Below are positions 27,526 through 40,797 of a DNA stretch of 64,000 nt, in pieces. The translations under genes and the position numbers were made by a program. The notes beneath the pieces are model-generated. The model worked only from the letters and a program-made list of their open reading frames with translations, did no database searches and was not told the origin of the DNA. Numbering within the stretch: the first letter of the stretch is position 1; each line of letters opens with the position of its first letter. This DNA comes from Lusitaniella coriacea LEGE 07157 (GTDB lineage: Bacteria; Cyanobacteriota; Cyanobacteriia; Cyanobacteriales; Spirulinaceae): positions 124,001 through 188,000 of the forward strand of contig NZ_JADEWZ010000001.1 in the NCBI RefSeq assembly GCF_015207425.1. Direction: 5' to 3'.

Positions 27526-28278
27526 ATGCAAGCAACAGCCGAGCAGTTGTCGCACCTTTCGATTTTTACCGTGCTTCACACCGAAGCATTATCCCTGTTA
27601 GCGCGACAGACTCAGATTAAAGGTTTTCAGCGAGGGGAAATTGTATTCAACGAAGGCGATTATCTCCCGCCGAAACTCTATGCAGTTTTAACCGGAGAGA
27701 TTCAGATTCAAAAAGTGTCTGTATCGGGGAAAGAAACCGTGTTACGTTGGCTTCCTCCTGGAGAACTGTTTGCAGCACCCGCTCTCTTTGGGGATGGGAT
27801 TGCGCCTGCAACCGCGATCGCGCTACAAGATTGTGAAGTCGTCACCCTAGAAAAATCTGCATTGTTAGAGGCGATTCAGTCAACCCCAGAAATTGCCTTA
27901 CAAATTTTGCAGTGTTTTAACCAGCGCTTGCAAGAAATGCACCAAACCATTCACGGACTCGTTTCCGAGCGAGCGATTGTCCGCCTTGCTCGCACCCTAC
28001 AATACACCGCCCAACGATACGGTACAAAAAAAACGAAGCAAGGCGTTTGCTTAACCGTAAAGCTCCCTTATCAGCAACTCGCGCGCAGGATTGGAATTAC
28101 CTATGAGGAGTGCGTTCGTTTGACGAACAAGGATCTACGCGCGATCGTTTCCTATCAACGAGGCGGTATAATTGCCATTCTGGATGCGTCTGCCTTGGAC
28201 GCGATCTCACAGAGATCTGCCGAAGGGCAGTGCGCGTCCGAATCTTCTACAGCGATGCCCTCTCTACCAAAGCTTTAG
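27526..28278 (+). CDS. Crp/Fnr family transcriptional regulator
   Basis: 250 residues. A cyclic-nucleotide-binding-type beta barrel (about 10-125: IFTVLHTEALSLLARQTQIKGFQRGEIVFNEGD) leads through a dimerisation helix (about 125-155) to a winged helix-turn-helix (LPYQQLARRIGITYEECVRLTNKDLRAIVSYQRGGI, about 185-225). The cNMP phosphate-binding loop residues are not the classical RAA pattern and there is no N-terminal Fe-S cysteine set, so the ligand is uncertain. It converges on, and overlaps by 32 bp, a globin gene, which suggests a role in NO or oxygen response; this is inference from neighbourhood. Confidence 0.9.
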   Translation: MQATAEQLSHLSIFTVLHTEALSLLARQTQIKGFQRGEIVFNEGDYLPPKLYAVLTGEIQIQKVSVSGKETVLRWLPPGELFAAPALFGDGIAPATAIALQDCEVVTLEKSALLEAIQSTPEIALQILQCFNQRLQEMHQTIHGLVSERAIVRLARTLQYTAQRYGTKKTKQGVCLTVKLPYQQLARRIGITYEECVRLTNKDLRAIVSYQRGGIIAILDASALDAISQRSAEGQCASESSTAMPSLPKL

Positions 28279-28702
28279 GCTGTAACAGCTCTGGTGGATA
28301 CTCGCTCCCCTCCAACATAATTTGAGCAATGATTGAATAGGCATTCGCCCAAGCCCATTCCACCTCAGAAGTCCAGTCTTCCTGCAAAATATTGGCGAAG
28401 GCTTGAAGCAGAGTAGCGCCAACTGCCGGATAGTGGGCTGGCACAGCACCGTATTGAACGTGGCGAGTTCCCAAACCCTTCAACGGTTCCATTAAGGCTT
28501 CTGGATTCCGCAAACCCCTAACCACAAGCGCCAGAGAGTCAAATAGTTTCTTGGATTGATCGTCCATCGACACATGGGCAAACAATGGCTTAACGTCAGG
28601 GTAATCTTTAAACAGAATGGCGTAAAAACAATCGGTAAAGTCTGTTTGGCGCTCTTTGATACGAGCAAAGCTCGCTTCTAGCAGTTCTACTTGCAAAGCC
28701 AT
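28247..28702 (-). CDS. Single-domain globin
   Basis: 151 residues. Classical globin fold: SFARIKERQTDFTDCFYAILFKDYPDVKPLF (helices A-B and the CD Phe), LALVVRGLRNPEALMEPLKGLGTRHVQYGAVPAHYPAVGATLL with the proximal His in the GTRHVQYG segment (about residue 95), and WTSEVEWAWANAYSIIAQIM for the last helix. It resembles the haem domain of flavohaemoglobins (Vitreoscilla-type) without the reductase part. Such proteins bind O2 or NO. Its 3' end overlaps the convergent Crp/Fnr gene. Confidence 0.92.
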   Translation of the reverse strand: MALQVELLEASFARIKERQTDFTDCFYAILFKDYPDVKPLFAHVSMDDQSKKLFDSLALVVRGLRNPEALMEPLKGLGTRHVQYGAVPAHYPAVGATLLQAFANILQEDWTSEVEWAWANAYSIIAQIMLEGSEYPPELLQPKALVERASL

Positions 28703-28838
28703 GAGTATTTTGAATCCTTGTTCTATCTCTTTGTTGGACTCCTAGTTTGCCAAGATTGCCTCGCAAGTTCTATGAGGTAGCTCATAGAGCGCTCAAAAGC
28801 GATTGTTCCATTCCCAACCCAAAGGGAAATTTTGAAGA

Positions 28839-28917
28839 TTAGGTAATCTGTCGTGCAACAACAAGATAGCGGAAAAGATATTCGGCAATTTCGAGATAGT
28901 TCTGTGCGACTGTGGGA
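28839..28917 (-). pseudogene. Duplicated 3' end of mtnB (direct repeat, left copy)
   Basis: 28843-28917 matches 33016-33090 at 74 of 75 positions (difference at 28878 versus 33051). Read on the minus strand it encodes the last ~26 codons of mtnB. Beyond the shared block the copy still has a synonymous Thr codon and a stop (TAA here, TAG at the intact gene), so the reading frame end is kept while bases differ. It lies exactly on the far side of the 4.2-kb insertion, as an attachment-site duplicate or a scar of recombination would. Confidence 0.9.
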
Positions 28918-28952
28918 AATATCGAGACGTTATCTGCAGCAATACAAGTTTC

Positions 28953-29149
28953 TATAGCAGTCCTCAATGATTTGTAATATTTTTGATCTTAGAAGCCTTG
29001 ATGTATAAGGATTTTGTATTTTCACTTTTCTGTATAGCGGTATGTAGTTGGGTGAAGCACCCTAGCATAGCTGTAATACCCTTAACGAAAGAATTTATCT
29101 GTATCTCACTTCAAACGAACACCGCCATAACTGAAATAGGACTGCTATA
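28953..29149. mobile_element. IS630-type MITE (197 bp)
   Basis: TATAGCAGTCCT (28953-28964) and AGGACTGCTATA (29138-29149) are perfect 12-bp terminal inverted repeats. If TA is the target duplication, the repeats proper are TAGCAGTCCT, the pattern expected of IS630/Tc1-mariner elements. The interior is AT-rich and encodes nothing. It lies between the mtnB fragment and the 1260-residue gene. Confidence 0.75.
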
Positions 29150-29204
29150 TGTGTAGTAATAATACTGAAGAACTATTTTTTCCTGATTCAGAGAAGATAT
29201 ACTT

Positions 29205-32200
29205 ATGATTCCTCCCAATTGGATTGATGCAACCGATCTAAATTCATGGGCGAACAGAAGAGATGCTCAAGGAAAACTACCACAGTTGCTACGTCGTTTG
29301 ATTCATGCGACTGTCCCACGACTTCAAAGAATTAGATTTCCAGCAGGGGAGAGTGTCCAAATGGGAGGCTGGGATGGAATTATAGAAACATCCGAAGGTA
29401 ACGCTTTTGTTCCTGATGGTTGTTCAGTCTGGGAATTAGGAGTAAACAGAAAGGTTAAAGGAAAAGCAGACGATGATTATCAAAAACGTTGTGCTGATTC
29501 TTTGGGATTGACCTCTTCTGAGACTACATTTGTTTTTGTAACTCCACGGCGCTGGGGAGGCAAAGATGATTGGATCAGAGCAAAGAATTCTGAAGGAATT
29601 TGGGCTGAGGTAATAGCATACGATGCAGATGACATAGAACAGTGGCTAGAACTCGCCCCAGCAGTTCATATCTGGTTAGCTCTATTGCTCGGAAAGTGGT
29701 CAGAGAATGATCAAGATATCGGTAGCTTTTGGGATGAATGGGTTAACGTAACTACACCATGCCTAACCTCTACATTGCATTTAGCTGGTAGAGAACAAAA
29801 TGTGGAAAAAGTGAAAAACTGGCTGAATGAACCGCCTTCAAAACTGACTATTCAGGCAAATTCTATTGAAGAAGCGATCGCGTTTTTTACGGCAATAATC
29901 TACGATCTGCCAGAGGATGAGCGAGTTCAATTCCTTTCTCGATGTGTTCTGGTGAAAAATGAGTCTTCATGGAGATATTTTGCTAGTTCTCAAGATTCAC
30001 TAATTTTGATACCTACATTCGAGCGACTTAAATCAATCCCCCAGGAACATCATGTTCTAGTTTCTGTTGGAAGAGAGATTAGTCCATCCAAAGACACCTT
30101 ACAGCTTTCAAGGCTATCTAGAGAAGGTTTTAGAAAAGCTCTGGCGAGCATGGGCTTCTCCTTGGAACGGGCTGATGCTTTATCCCAGGAATCTAAGAGA
30201 AGTTTGCTGGTACTACGTCGTTTGCTTGCATCTAATCCTGAAATACATACCCCTGATTGGGCGAAGCCTGAAAATGCGCGATCGCTTATCCCGGTATTGC
30301 TAGCTGGCGCATGGGATGAAACTAGAGAAGCTGACAAAGAAGCAATTGCTGCACTTGCTCGTAAAACTTATCAAGAAGTCATCAATGATATTTTACGTTG
30401 GCTAAACACTTCCGATCCACCCATTCGTAAGTTGGGGAATGTGTGGCAGCTAGTTTCTCGTGAAGTTACATGGCATTTTATCTCTCACTCTCTAGTTCGA
30501 GATGACTTTGAGATTCTTGAGACAACTGTATTGTCAGTTTTAGGAACACTCGATCCAAAGTATGAATTACCTATCGATCAGCAATTTGCTGCCAGTGTAT
30601 ATGGGAAAAACCTCCCTCATTCAAATTTTCTGCGAGAAGGATTAGCAGAGACTCTTGCGATCCTAGCAACGAGAGGAATACCGTCAGAAATTCAGGATAT
30701 AACAACAGCGCAAAGTAAAGTCAATGTAATTATTCGCAAGTTGCTAAATACTGACTCTGATTGGCAACAATGGGCTTCTCTTTCATACCTTCTACCTACG
30801 CTGGCTGAAGCTGCCCCCGAAGTATTTTTAGAAGTAGTAGAGCAAGAGCTTCAAAGTGATTTTCCTACTTTACTGGGTTTATTCCAAGAAAGTAGATGGG
30901 CATTGGGAGGTAGCCCCCATACAGGACTACTTTGGGCGCTTGAAACATTTGCTTGGAAACCCATCTATCTCTCACGAGTGACTTTGATTCTAGCAAAGCT
31001 ATCCAGGCTCGACCCTGGTGGTCATTTAGTCAATCGTCCGTTCAACAGTTTATGCGAAATATTTTTTTGCTGGAAACCTCAAACATCTGCTCCCCTCCAG
31101 CAAAGATTACGAGTCATTGATACTTTGTTGATTCGTGAGCCAGAAGTTGCATGGAATTTACTATGTAATCTGCTACCAAAAATTACTGGCGAACTCTCAC
31201 ATCCAATCTACAAACCTCGCTGGCGAGAATGGTTGATTGAATCTAGATCAAAAGTTACTTGTACAGAATATTGGCAGAATATTGAAGCTTTAATTCAACG
31301 GATTTTGACTCATGTAGGAAGCAATAGTAATAGATTATGTGATGTGATCGAACGGATAGAGTCTCTTCAGCCGAGCCTGCGAGATCGAGTTATTGATTTT
31401 ATTGCTTCAATTGACACTGCTAATATCCCAGATAGAGATATTGTAAAAGCTTGGGGTAGCCTTAGAAAAATCATCCAAAAACACAAAAAATACTCCAACG
31501 CCAAATGGGCAATGCAAACAGAGGTCATTGAACAGCTTGAATCTATTTATGAAAATTTGGAGCCTCATAGTCTAATTTTTAAATATGCTTGGTTATTCTC
31601 TGTTAATCCTCCTCTTTCAGACAGCACTGGTTTTGACTGGAAAACTAGGGACAAGAAAATAAAACAAGTTAGACATGAAGCTGTTAAAGAAATTTATTTT
31701 AAACTTGGTATCTCTGCTTTATTAGATCTGGCAATTCATGTTAAAGAACCAGGTCTACTCGGCGCTTCCATTGGTTGGCTCGAAGCGATAGACAAAGATG
31801 AAATACAGCTACTCAATAACTCATTGGGGCAACACAGCAAAGTATTACATGACTTTGGAATTGAATTTATTCGTGGTCGTTTAGGAGTTTCAGGATGGAG
31901 TTGGGCAGAAAAAGTCATATCTCTTGCAAAATCTGGAAATTGGCCGAAGAAACAGTTACTCAATTTCTTTCATGGTTTACCCTTTGAACAGGGTAGTTGG
32001 GATTTACTGTCTCTATTTGATGAGAAGTTCAAAACAACTTACTGGCAGACAATTTCAGCAATTGGGGTCAAATTAGATGATTGTAAAACAGCAGTGTGTA
32101 GATTGCTTAGTGTCAATCGTCCCTATGCTGCTTTAAATCTGGCTGCTTTGTATTTGAATAATCAATCTGGAGTTGTTTCTATACAGCCCAGAATCCTGGT

Positions 32201-32987
32201 AGAAATTCTTGAAAAAGCAGCTCTTATCGATCCACTGACAGAAATACCAACACCAGGTACACAACTACTTGACCACTATATCGAACAAATATTTTATGCT
32301 TTGGACGCTTCAGAATCAGTTGAAGAAAATGAGATTGCTAGACTGGAGTTGATTTATTTTTACTGGCTTCGTAATAGCAAGCGACAACCGAAGTTGCTCC
32401 ATCAAGAATTAGCTAGTAATCCGTTATTTTTTGCTGAAATTGTAAAGCTTGTATATAAATCAGAGGATAATCAAGAAGAATCAGTGAAATTCGATGAAGC
32501 AACGGTAGAAAGAGCTAGAATGAACTACGAGTTGCTTGAATCACTATATCAAGTACCTGGTCTTACTGAAGACGGGAATATTGACTCCACAAAACTCAGA
32601 GATTGGGTTCTAAAGGCACGAGAGGCTTGTCAGGAAAGTGGGAGAGGCGCAATTGGAGATCATCATATTGGCGAGCTTTTAGCATATGCACCAAAAGCAT
32701 CGGATGGACTCTGGCCTGATATAGCAGTCAGAGAGATTATTGAGGAGATTGCAAGTCGAGATATTGAACTAGGAATAGAAACTGGTGTTTATAATCTCCG
32801 GGGAGTTTGGAGTAAATCAATTGGTGAAGGAGGTATCCAAGAAAGACAACTGGCTGAAACTTACCGAGACTATGCTGATGCTATCGTAGATACTTATCCT
32901 CAAACTGCTTCAATGCTGTACAGAATAGCGAACGATTATGACTCTGTTGCTCATGGAGAGGATATTCAAGCAGAACTTAGAGATTAA
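29205..32987 (+). CDS. 1260-residue protein with nuclease-like N-terminus, possible defence gene
   Basis: ATG at 29205. Residues 1-155 look like a PD-(D/E)XK-type domain: GGWDG (Asp57), a strand with VWELG (Glu77), then KADDDYQKR (Lys87, Tyr92) and a core strand VFVTPRRW. Residues about 190-360 have the secondary-structure rhythm of a STAND/AAA-type core (REQNVEKVKNWL; SLILIPTFE as a Walker-B-like strand; HHVLVSVGRE), but no GxxxxGK[ST] loop is present, so nucleotide binding is doubtful. The remaining ~900 residues are helical repeats. No signal peptide. The DNA is AT-richer and poorer in HIP1 than its surroundings, and the gene sits inside a duplication of mtnB's end. Nuclease-plus-repeat architecture in an insertion suggests anti-phage defence; this is inference. 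Confidence 0.75.
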   Translation: MIPPNWIDATDLNSWANRRDAQGKLPQLLRRLIHATVPRLQRIRFPAGESVQMGGWDGIIETSEGNAFVPDGCSVWELGVNRKVKGKADDDYQKRCADSLGLTSSETTFVFVTPRRWGGKDDWIRAKNSEGIWAEVIAYDADDIEQWLELAPAVHIWLALLLGKWSENDQDIGSFWDEWVNVTTPCLTSTLHLAGREQNVEKVKNWLNEPPSKLTIQANSIEEAIAFFTAIIYDLPEDERVQFLSRCVLVKNESSWRYFASSQDSLILIPTFERLKSIPQEHHVLVSVGREISPSKDTLQLSRLSREGFRKALASMGFSLERADALSQESKRSLLVLRRLLASNPEIHTPDWAKPENARSLIPVLLAGAWDETREADKEAIAALARKTYQEVINDILRWLNTSDPPIRKLGNVWQLVSREVTWHFISHSLVRDDFEILETTVLSVLGTLDPKYELPIDQQFAASVYGKNLPHSNFLREGLAETLAILATRGIPSEIQDITTAQSKVNVIIRKLLNTDSDWQQWASLSYLLPTLAEAAPEVFLEVVEQELQSDFPTLLGLFQESRWALGGSPHTGLLWALETFAWKPIYLSRVTLILAKLSRLDPGGHLVNRPFNSLCEIFFCWKPQTSAPLQQRLRVIDTLLIREPEVAWNLLCNLLPKITGELSHPIYKPRWREWLIESRSKVTCTEYWQNIEALIQRILTHVGSNSNRLCDVIERIESLQPSLRDRVIDFIASIDTANIPDRDIVKAWGSLRKIIQKHKKYSNAKWAMQTEVIEQLESIYENLEPHSLIFKYAWLFSVNPPLSDSTGFDWKTRDKKIKQVRHEAVKEIYFKLGISALLDLAIHVKEPGLLGASIGWLEAIDKDEIQLLNNSLGQHSKVLHDFGIEFIRGRLGVSGWSWAEKVISLAKSGNWPKKQLLNFFHGLPFEQGSWDLLSLFDEKFKTTYWQTISAIGVKLDDCKTAVCRLLSVNRPYAALNLAALYLNNQSGVVSIQPRILVEILEKAALIDPLTEIPTPGTQLLDHYIEQIFYALDASESVEENEIARLELIYFYWLRNSKRQPKLLHQELASNPLFFAEIVKLVYKSEDNQEESVKFDEATVERARMNYELLESLYQVPGLTEDGNIDSTKLRDWVLKAREACQESGRGAIGDHHIGELLAYAPKASDGLWPDIAVREIIEEIASRDIELGIETGVYNLRGVWSKSIGEGGIQERQLAETYRDYADAIVDTYPQTASMLYRIANDYDSVAHGEDIQAELRD

Positions 32988-33011: not shown

Positions 33012-33626
33012 CTAAGTAATCTGTCGTGCAACAACAAGATAGCGGAAAAGGTATTCGGCAATTTCGAGATAGTTCTGTGCGACTGTGGGAGAAGAACCCC
33101 ATACGGTAACGCCGTGGTTGCGGATGAGTAATGCCGGAATATCGGGAGGTGCGGCTTGAAAACGATCGCGCACTTCAGTCGCAATGTCCCGAACCGCTAG
33201 ATGGTTCTCGAATACAGGAATTTTTACTTCCGGGTTTTCTTGCCAAATTCCCAACCCTTTAATCATTTCCAAAGGCGGAAGAGGGAGGTATCCGTCGCGA
33301 CTAAAATTAGCAGCGATATTCGCCTCGACGGAGTGGACGTGATAGCACGCGCAAACATCGGGAAAAAGGTCGTAAATGGTTTGGTGGATGCTGGTTTCTG
33401 CCGAGGGACGGTTATTGGGGTTGGGGGATTCGATTACCGTACCATTGGGGTTAATCCGAACAAAATCGCGATCGCGCAAGTCTCCCTTTTGTTTCCCACT
33501 CGCCGTAATCCAAAAACTACTATCTTCCAAGCGCACCGATAAATTTCCCGCAGTTCCCACCATCCAACCCAGTTGATAAAATTGGCGCGCAGCAGCAATA
33601 ACAGCAGAACGAGGATCGGAAGTCAT
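33012..33626 (-). CDS. mtnB: Methylthioribulose-1-phosphate dehydratase
   Basis: 204 residues. Class II aldolase-like zinc enzyme of methionine salvage that dehydrates 5-methylthioribulose 1-phosphate. Seen: WMVGTAGNLSVRLEDSSFWITASGKQKGDL, SAETSIHQTIYDLFPDVCACYHVHSVEANIAA with the zinc His pair and catalytic Glu, and LLIRNHGVTVWGSSP with the third His. Transcribed with mtnX, which ends 26 bp upstream. Its stop codon lies at the boundary of the inserted 1260-residue gene; the last 75 bp or so are repeated at 28843-28917. Confidence 0.93.
   Translation of the reverse strand: MTSDPRSAVIAAARQFYQLGWMVGTAGNLSVRLEDSSFWITASGKQKGDLRDRDFVRINPNGTVIESPNPNNRPSAETSIHQTIYDLFPDVCACYHVHSVEANIAANFSRDGYLPLPPLEMIKGLGIWQENPEVKIPVFENHLAVRDIATEVRDRFQAAPPDIPALLIRNHGVTVWGSSPTVAQNYLEIAEYLFRYLVVARQIT
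33016..33090 (-). repeat. Direct repeat within mtnB 3' end (right copy)
   Basis: 75-bp block that is 74/75 identical to 28843-28917, in the same orientation. Start-to-start distance is 4173 bp. This copy belongs to the intact gene. Confidence 0.9.
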
Positions 33627-36920: not shown

Positions 36921-37790
36921 CTATTCAGCCGGGGTCAATGAGGGCAAGCTACTTTCGCCTAAATAGTATTTCTCGATAATCTCGGTGGAGGTGTCGCACC
37001 ATTGAGCGACGATCGCGAGAGGAATGCCTTTGATAACCTGTTCGCTAATGAAGGTGTCGCGACAGTTGTAGGGAGTCGTGCCAGATTTGATGGGGTCAAC
37101 GATCGTATTCCAGGCGCGATTAGAGAAATTACCGTAGTTGATATCTTTGCCCCTTGGTGAGGGGAACACCCAATCAGAGGAAAGGGCATCAACGGGCTTT
37201 GTTTCCTCAAGCAGTGCCTTCAACTTGTCATTACAAGGAAATAGCCGCTTCTTGTTGTTTTTGCTGCCTGCGGTCTTAAATCGCTGGCTTCCATGTCGAT
37301 AAACGCTGCCATTGAAAACAATGGTTTCTTTGAGAATATCTCCCCAACTCAGCGCGATCGCTTCCCCCGGTCGGCAACCCGTGAGGAAAAGAAAACTAAC
37401 GAAAGGGTAGTAATAGCAGTAGGCGTGTCCCACAAAATTCTTGCCATTCCATCTCCCTCGATGTTCCTCAAAAGCTCGAAGCACCAACTCCTTCTCTTTG
37501 GTTGTAAAGGGATTTGGCTTCAATTCCTTTTCCCAATTGTGCTTGAATTCTTTCGCCATTTCCGCCCAAGGATTGGGGGGAATGACCTTGTTGTGGAGCA
37601 GCGCCCACTTGAATGCCGCGTTAATCTGCTGTAGGACGCGCTTGGTCATTGATTCGGTCGTGTTTTCAAAAGCCATTGCCGCATCTCTAGGCTGCTGTAA
37701 GGGGAGCCAATGCCCGCTCTCTCAATCAGGGGGGAGACTGAAGTCCTCATGTAGTGAATAGTGGTGGGCTTGAGAATCGCCGATTTGTAC
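36921..37790 (-). pseudogene. Tyrosine recombinase/integrase, frameshifted and N-terminally truncated
   Basis: The C-terminal 251 residues are open from 37676: TGCRPGEAIALSWGDI supplies the first catalytic Arg, KTAGSKNNKKR the Lys, YNCRDTFIS the second Arg, and EIIEKYYLG the Tyr; the usual box II His is not visible. Upstream, a shifted frame reads SAILKPTTIHYMRTSVSPL and LIERAGIGSPYSSLEMRQWL, an obvious SAM-like core-binding domain, and runs out at about 37645. The frameshift therefore lies between 37645 and 37675, near TTTTGAAAA. The arm-binding N-terminus is missing and the frame abuts a Cas12k fragment near 37790. Located next to tRNA-Gly, the usual target of such enzymes. Confidence 0.85.
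37134..37361. repeat. Direct repeat within recombinase (left copy)
   Basis: About 228 bp of the recombinase catalytic domain recur at 40570-40797 in the same orientation at roughly 93-95% identity with a single-base indel. The two copies bracket the Cas12k, integron-like and IS remnants. Confidence 0.9.
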
Positions 37791-39959: not shown

Positions 39960-40569
39960 TTAAGCAGGAGCCTCAGAGGAGAAAAAGAATCGGAAAAGTT
40001 TGCGTAAATTGAAACCACAACCCGCCAAAAGCGCATTAATACGGTCGCCCTGTTGACCCTTAAGGTAATTGCGCTTCAGACAATGGTCTTGCTTCGCATG
40101 ACCAATCACGGGTTCAATGGCACTACGACGTTTGATGAGTTTCTTTTGAGTTCCTTTGAACTTCCTTGTCCCCGCAACACAAACCTCCACATCATCAGGA
40201 TGATAAACTTGACCGCGAAAGCCCTTGTCAACAAACACTTGTTTGGGGTGAATCTCGCTGAGCTGCTCCACTTGAGACAGTGCGGGGATGAGTGTTGCTC
40301 CATCGTAGGGATTGCCATGCACCGCATCAATTCCTACAATCCAATTACTCTTGTTTGTGCTGACCATCACCACCTTACAACCAAACTCGTAGCGCTTGTG
40401 AGATTTTCCTTTGGCGATGCATTCCACTTCTGGAGCATGGACGCTGTAGACTTTGGGTGAATCCTGCCGTTTTTGCTGATGAATGCGCTGGCTTCTCTCG
40501 AGTAAATCTTTTATGGCTGCTGGGGGTGAAGGCAGTTTTCTCTTCAGTTCGCGAATCACTCTTCCCAAG
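39960..40569 (-). pseudogene. IS5-type transposase, C-terminal part only
   Basis: Reading from about 40569 to the stop at 39960: RVIRELKRKLPSPPAAIKDL, SVHAPEVECIAKGKSHKRYEFGCKV, GNPYDGATL, VFVDKGFRGQVYH (DDE Asp), and KRRSAIEPVIGHAKQDHCLKRNYLKG with the family Glu in the Y/R-x2-I-E-P-V-IGHAK motif. This is the second half of an IS5-group (IS1182/ISL2-like) DDE transposase. The first half is missing; the frame runs straight into duplicated recombinase sequence at 40570, which produces an accidental fused N-terminus. It is not expected to be active. Confidence 0.85.
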
Positions 40570-40797
40570 GTAGTTGATATCTTTGCCCCTTGGTGAGGGG
40601 AACACCCAATCAGAGGAAAGGGCATCAACGGGCTTTATTTCCTCAAGAAGTGCTTTCAATGTGTCATTACAAGGAAAGCAGTCGCTTCTTATTGTTTTTG
40701 CTGCCTGCGGTCTTAAATCGCTGGCTTCCATGTCGGTAAACGCTGCCGTTGAAAATAATGGTTTCTTTGAGAATATCTCCCCAACTCAGCACGATCT
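40570..40797 (-). pseudogene. Second partial copy of the recombinase
   Basis: Matches 37134-37361, covering the segment from TTGCCCCTTGGTGAGGGG to CTCCCCAACTCAGC. A one-base insertion near 40679-40682 shifts the frame relative to the first copy. It lies between the truncated transposase and the VOC gene and marks the right edge of the disturbed region. Confidence 0.88.

Follow-up and report, generated by a model that had tools for sequence, protein, structure and literature searches.

NLR and Apaf-1 proteins are active nucleotide-binding switches that carry animal effector domains, and the Avs proteins, which join an N-terminal effector to a STAND core and a long C-terminal sensor, have an intact NTPase. 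PD-lambda-4 was named in a study whose 21 systems were validated by phage challenge (Vassallo 2022, PMC9519451), and its A protein of ~1280 amino acids (aa) combines a PD-(D/E)XK-like head, a STAND-type core and a helical C-terminus. An inactive STAND domain (iSTAND) has been described in the MoxR-vWA ternary systems, which are bacterial conflict systems whose N-terminal domains vary (Kaur 2020, PMC7159879). Here we describe a gene located at positions 29205-32987 (+ strand) of a 64,000-nucleotide stretch of Lusitaniella coriacea LEGE 07157 (contig NZ_JADEWZ010000001.1, positions 124,001 to 188,000; hereafter the window). The gene encodes a 1260-aa protein in which a nuclease-like head is followed by a STAND core that lacks a P-loop, a winged helix and a HEAT-like solenoid. 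We consider this protein to represent a previously undescribed, P-loop-less branch related to PD-lambda-4 A, and thus to be a putative antiviral protein of the STAND/PD-lambda-4-like kind rather than something categorically new.

The relationship to PD-lambda-4 A is evident only at the profile level. Searches of Pfam, NCBIfam, PADLOC and PDB sequences with the 1260-aa protein returned nothing significant, and profile searches against PDB sequences produced only weak, unrelated-looking matches, such as one to ribosomal uS13. When compared by hhalign, however, the family profile and PD-lambda-4 A align end to end over more than 1000 columns (probability 99.7, E 2.6e-26), at an identity of only ~14-15%. 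The PADLOC model PD-Lambda-4_A (PDLC03991) matches six of 25 relatives, with a best E value of 1.1e-7. The original prediction, made from the letters alone, had proposed a single-gene defence system of a little-described type. A P-loop-less branch related to PD-lambda-4 A is the better description.

To compare the two families, we recovered a cyanobacterial protein that is a true relative of PD-lambda-4 A (L052; E 1.8e-268 against the PADLOC model) and aligned it with eight more. All nine retain the P-loop GxxGxGK[ST] and the Walker B motif [VI]D[NE]C, and PD-lambda-4 A also carries a QxK nuclease motif. In the family of the 1260-aa protein, by contrast, neither Walker motif remains and ExG stands in place of QxK, with an invariant lysine further downstream. 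Motifs were checked in 26 members of this family, which spans Cyanobacteria, Bacteroidota, Actinomycetota and Proteobacteria. In a tree of the module that is shared among all of these proteins, the family forms one clade (support 0.99) separate from PD-lambda-4 A.

The original prediction had set structure prediction of the head as a test of its nuclease assignment, and the resulting model returned a nuclease fold. An AlphaFold2 model of residues 2-600, computed from an 11-sequence alignment, has a predicted local distance difference test (pLDDT) score of 87.6 and a predicted template modelling score of 0.81, and the pLDDT is mostly ~90 within the head (residues 5-165; 29217..29699, + strand). 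Using VIA-align, 138 residues of model region 1-152 could be aligned with the cleavage domain of FokI (residues 399-560) at Z 7.9 and a root-mean-square deviation of 4.2. A Z value just below 8 would be weak if taken alone; the profile alignment, which pairs this region with the D...QxK head of PD-lambda-4 A, points the same way. As modelled, the head therefore has a restriction-endonuclease fold.

The predicted active site lies in the stretch GGWDG...VWELG...KADDDYQKR (residues 54-95; 29364..29489, + strand), which aligns with the D and QxK of PD-lambda-4 A. Six positions are identical in all 26 homologues, among which overall identity falls to ~29%: D57 (codon 29373-29375), E77 (29433-29435), G79 (29439-29441), K87 (29463-29465), D91 (29475-29477) and K94 (29484-29486). 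Both acidic active-site residues of the PD-(D/E)XK superfamily are thus present as D57 and E77. Because E77-x-G79 aligns with Q79-x-K81 of PD-lambda-4 A in hhalign, the position of the usual catalytic lysine is occupied here by an invariant glycine. No member has a lysine at this (D/E)xK position, for which invariant K87 is an alternative; in the model, K87, D91 and K94 share one face of the following helix (residues 84-97). Migration of active-site residues is known in the PD-(D/E)XK superfamily, and cleavage of DNA by the head using a migrated lysine is plausible. The site proposed originally, D57/E77/K87, thus consists of invariant residues in a nuclease fold, although K87 lies away from the canonical ExK position.

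The middle of the protein had been read as keeping the rhythm of a STAND core from which the phosphate loop was lost, and both halves of this reading are borne out. When residues 2-600 are compared with the PDB using Foldseek, the best matches are an Avs5 filament (9nc9, E 1.7e-6) and Avs4 with a phage portal (8dgf, 1.9e-6), followed by Apaf-1 (3shf, 4.7e-4) and Dark (6.5e-4), and then by NLRP2, NLRC4, NLRP3 and clamp loaders. In VIA-align, model residues 165-345 are matched by AAA+ folds with Z values of 8-9, and a search of a viral structure library gave nothing beyond AAA+ and restriction-endonuclease matches. The core (residues 176-345; 29730..30239, + strand) lacks a Walker A motif in all 26 members. 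At the place of the P-loop stretch GLSGVGKTRL of PD-lambda-4 A, hhalign positions QANSIEEAIAF (residues 217-227; 29853..29885, + strand), and family members have a stretch such as A-N-S-I-E-E-A there. The strand at the Walker B position, LILIPTFE (residues 267-274; 30003..30026, + strand), carries no conserved acidic residue in the members checked.

The sequence that replaces the P-loop is itself conserved. Position 223 is E or D in 26 of 26 members and faces the last P-loop glycine, whereas position 224 (A, V, T or G in all 26) faces the lysine, in a register that is taken from the profile alignment and could be off by one. F227 is also kept throughout. Since E/D223 and F227 are invariant in this sense, the replacement motif suggests function rather than decay. 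The ratio of nonsynonymous to synonymous substitution rates between homologues L002 and L003 is 0.34 overall and 0.34 within the core, indicating purifying selection. A decayed or frameshifted gene was considered and is ruled out by the intact open reading frame (ORF) and the conserved family. The predicted fold and the alignment of profiles with a sister family that has the P-loop confirm that this is a STAND core that has lost its own.

These features set the protein apart from the other described STAND systems that it resembles. Avs4 and Avs5 are its best structural matches and share its layout, but their Walker A and Walker B motifs are absent from this family, and no family member matches the PADLOC Avs models at the sequence level. 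NLR and Apaf-1 proteins likewise share the core fold and layout. Like the iSTAND ternary systems, the protein has an inactive STAND domain; those systems operate with MoxR and vWA partners, whereas the 1260-aa protein has its own nuclease-like domain. No MoxR or vWA gene is adjacent to it, its neighbours being globin and mtnB/mtnX genes here and varied genes at other loci.

The remainder of the protein, originally described as repeats, is a HEAT/karyopherin-like alpha-solenoid. An AlphaFold2 model of residues 340-1260 has a pLDDT of 87.4 and is entirely helical past a winged-helix-like region (residues 346-450; 30240..30554, + strand). Foldseek matches of this tail are karyopherins, SCC2 and other HEAT proteins; because the fold is common, we limit the claim to a HEAT-like solenoid (residues 451-1100; 30555..32504, + strand). 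The solenoid contains a conserved block, TGLLWALE..DPGG..NRP..SL..IF..W.PQT (approximately residues 574-627), whose first part is where the PDLC03991 matches of relatives fall. The protein ends in a conserved cap (residues 1101-1260; 32505..32984, + strand) with the pattern N-R-G...GG..ER..A..Y, in which N1197, R1199, G1209, G1210 and E1213 are invariant and mean column conservation is 0.54.

The module that begins with the winged helix (residues ~350-1250) recurs behind different N-termini. A second group (L029-L033, L039, L043, L044 and L047; for example L031:5218-8757, L047:4128-7691 and L044:622-4158) carries another nuclease-like domain, NPFSTGGGG...DTDDLIV...QxK, and apparently has no STAND core. 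These proteins of ~1180 aa, with the form DTDDLIV...QIKHS, occur in E. coli, Shewanella and one genome of the cyanobacterial phylum, and are unnamed by the libraries used. A third group (L072:745-3902, L048:4570-7661 and L035:5564-8694) begins with the short motif QNHTGTGHNVAG and also apparently lacks a STAND core. Its members are preceded by a gene that matches the NCBIfam model antiphage_GapS6a (E 8e-38 to 5e-41) and ends in a similar motif. The sharing of this QNHsGtGdNvgG-type motif between GapS6a and its partner suggests, from the sequences, an adaptor interaction. E. coli relatives are located in or beside prophages, and in a P2-like prophage of E. coli the gapS6a pair is flanked by an ogr-like gene on one side and late-control gene D on the other. 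We propose that gapS6a and the third-group protein, which occur together in P2-like prophages and on a plasmid, form a GAPS6-like system that has gone unannotated. Equating the third group with GapS6b is not supported; cyanobacterial matches to the GapS6b model are short and below the cut-off.

GAPS6 (GapS6a/GapS6b) thus resembles our family through a sister branch that is encoded beside gapS6a, both proteins carrying the short QNHtGtGhNvaG motif. However, the module is not GapS6b by NCBIfam, and the 1260-aa gene has no gapS6a partner: no such ORF of at least 60 aa is present in 28703-29204. Swapping of effectors on one sensor in this way is a pattern familiar from Avs and NLR proteins. In the tree, the second and third groups fall inside the first with weak support (0.07-0.24), too weak to order the loss of the NTPase. 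In another cyanobacterium (L051; G021 C1:334000-345000), a P-loop-less core occurs behind a short motif with no nuclease head, and an inserted stretch splits this copy into two frames.

The family has a patchy and mobile distribution. Homologues are found in Scytonema, Spirirestis and Plectonema (57-58% identity in the best segment) and in Spirosoma (36%), and matches occur in only three of 59 relatives and five of 292 genomes of the cyanobacterial phylum. A further 23 plasmid records carry homologues with 27-35% identity, 18 of which span at least 80% of the query, in Rhizobium, Cupriavidus, Acetobacter, Adhaeribacter, Thalassospira, Arthrobacter, Shewanella and others, and 15 IMG/VR contigs carry homologues as well. 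A single-copy housekeeping gene, which had been named as the alternative, is ruled out by this spread; the gene is present as one copy in the L. coriacea genome, and the regions around homologues are variable or rich in defence genes. Many proteobacterial members and the Arthrobacter member have an extra N-terminal helix-turn-helix (HTH) domain of ~90 aa from differing HTH families (matches in plasmid members: Pfam HTH_3, 9.3e-6 and 7.6e-9; HTH_17, 7.8e-10). This domain is not present in the 1260-aa protein or in the cyanobacterial and Bacteroidota members examined. It was not overlooked here, since the stop-to-stop frame is only 1266 aa; the ORF starts with ATG and has zero internal stops.

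At its own locus, the gene stands alone in an AT-rich insertion, as originally proposed. It is preceded by a globin gene (28247-28702, minus strand) and followed by mtnB (33012-33626, minus strand) and then mtnX, names that were assigned by reading translations. The insertion of 4.2 kb holds this single gene and is enclosed by 78-bp direct repeats that are 97% identical and spaced 4173 bp from start to start; the left copy (28840..28917) is a partial mtnB 3' end, whereas the right copy (33013..33090) is the 3' end of intact mtnB. These two copies are the sole ones genome-wide, and the insertion they enclose has no integrase. The layout looks as though one defence gene had been captured through an att-type or a homology-mediated event; no comparable flanking direct repeat was found around homologues L002-L004. 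The GC content of the gene is 40.6% (29% at third codon positions), compared with 47.7% outside, and only ~1% of 3.8-kb stretches in the window are equally AT-rich. The claim that the insertion is HIP1-poor holds only mildly, with two sites against a median of four per 4.1-kb stretch (approximately the 5th percentile). The stretch 5' of the gene consists of the 78-bp repeat and an element of 197 bp (28953..29149) that resembles a miniature inverted-repeat transposable element, with a 12-bp terminal inverted repeat (TATAGCAGTCCT / AGGACTGCTATA) and four more partial copies of its internal part across the genome. A promoter and terminator scan at the gene gave nothing informative. A few kilobases downstream are a tyrosine-recombinase-like ORF (36921-37676, minus strand) and a transposase-like ORF (39960-40628, minus strand); small integrases are also near homologues L004 and L050.

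The surroundings of homologues are enriched for defence genes, as examination of genome neighbourhoods had been proposed to determine. Across 15 annotated plasmid loci, defence, toxin-antitoxin or restriction labels apply to 27 of 161 neighbours, compared with 7 of 152 in four control stretches from the same plasmids (Fisher P 4e-4; P 0.001 with two redundant rhizobial loci dropped). Individual loci include Shedu with SLATT, type I restriction-modification, SIR2 with AbiEii and RES, and Abi with superinfection exclusion. Beside the Plectonema homologue L004 lie a complete set of HmaABC defence genes (HmaA 2.5e-200, HmaB 7.8e-143, HmaC 5.6e-127; L004:14131-23838) and an integrase, with an RmrA-like XRE/ImmA protein on the opposite side. 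On three plasmids of the rhizobial order (L087, L088 and L089), an AbiEi/AbiEii pair lies divergently and directly upstream of HTH-fused homologues, which is possibly a conserved association. On one Rhizobium gallicum plasmid, a truncated family copy has as neighbours a gene resembling PD-lambda-4 A and a restriction island (methylase/Z1/Vsr). L002 and L003 encode closely similar proteins in different genomic surroundings.

We propose, with a probability of about 0.62, that the 1260-aa protein is a single-protein anti-phage or anti-plasmid sensor-effector of Avs/NLR-like build, in which a nuclease is the effector and the switch is nucleotide-independent (pseudo-STAND). The C-terminal solenoid would bind a cue specific to the invader, for which a conserved phage protein is the likeliest candidate. 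Cue binding could then shift the winged-helix and STAND-fold scaffold and unite the N-terminal PD-(D/E)XK-like domains, which when assembled would cut DNA so that the phage is stopped or the cell is killed. With Walker A and Walker B lost from the scaffold, the switch would neither bind nor hydrolyse ATP and would rely on a ligand-driven conformational change or on oligomerisation alone. The extra HTH of many proteobacterial members probably represses the gene or targets DNA. Several points weigh against this proposal. None of the genes around it at its own locus is a defence gene, the labels behind the 27 of 161 neighbours were assigned by hand via keywords in annotation, and three rhizobial loci share one AbiE neighbour. 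The PADLOC PD-Lambda-4_A model finds no match in the 1260-aa protein at E up to 10. A defence role is something we infer from homology and neighbourhood. Finally, every member has Gly79 in place of the ExK lysine, so the head might be a fold that binds DNA without cutting it.

If the head does not cut, the same defence sensor would bind DNA or a partner, and would require a separate effector or act by DNA binding or blocking. The glycine that stands where PD-lambda-4 A has K81 fits such a head, as do the relatives that have a partner gene in place of a nuclease-like domain. Nevertheless, we think this unlikely given that D57 and E77 are kept in every member and that the three invariant residues on one helix face are what would be expected for a lysine that has migrated to the next helix. 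Less probable again is a regulatory or addiction element of mobile DNA, in which HTH-fused members autoregulate and the protein stabilises plasmids in a toxin-antitoxin-like manner, with no phage sensing. The HTH fusions of many plasmid members, the 23 plasmid records and the adjacent AbiEi/AbiEii and RES/Xre pairs would all be explained, but the examined cyanobacterial and Bacteroidota members have no HTH, and the sensor-like solenoid and PD-lambda-4 homology suit defence better. That the protein is simply an ordinary PD-lambda-4 member is very improbable: profile homology extends end to end, but low identity, the missing P-loop and QxK, the failure of the PADLOC model and the separate clade all speak against it.

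A different question is whether the switch has been lost or only modified. The STAND core might still bind a nucleotide or another small ligand non-canonically, and conservation of the pseudo-site itself would be consistent with this. We consider it doubtful, because the Walker A lysine and a conserved Walker B acid are absent in every member checked and the second and third groups apparently lack the whole region. Returning to the proposed nucleotide-independent sensor-effector, a broader version can be offered tentatively: an NLR-like branch free of nucleotide control, in which a STAND scaffold whose P-loop was swapped for a conserved acidic motif would serve purely as a mechanical link from a HEAT sensor to exchangeable effectors, and in which the NTPase-less second and third groups would couple the sensor straight to a nuclease or a GapS6a-type adaptor.

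The family is searchable, although it was missed by the defence library used (PADLOC). PD-lambda-4, gapS6a and a set of unannotated plasmid- and prophage-borne proteins longer than 900 residues are connected by one solenoid sensor module. The prevailing view is that NLR and Avs sensors cannot switch on without binding a nucleotide. With a widespread family in which the STAND scaffold and a nuclease-like effector persist while both Walker motifs are missing from every member checked, it becomes directly testable whether sensors of this kind can dispense with nucleotide binding.

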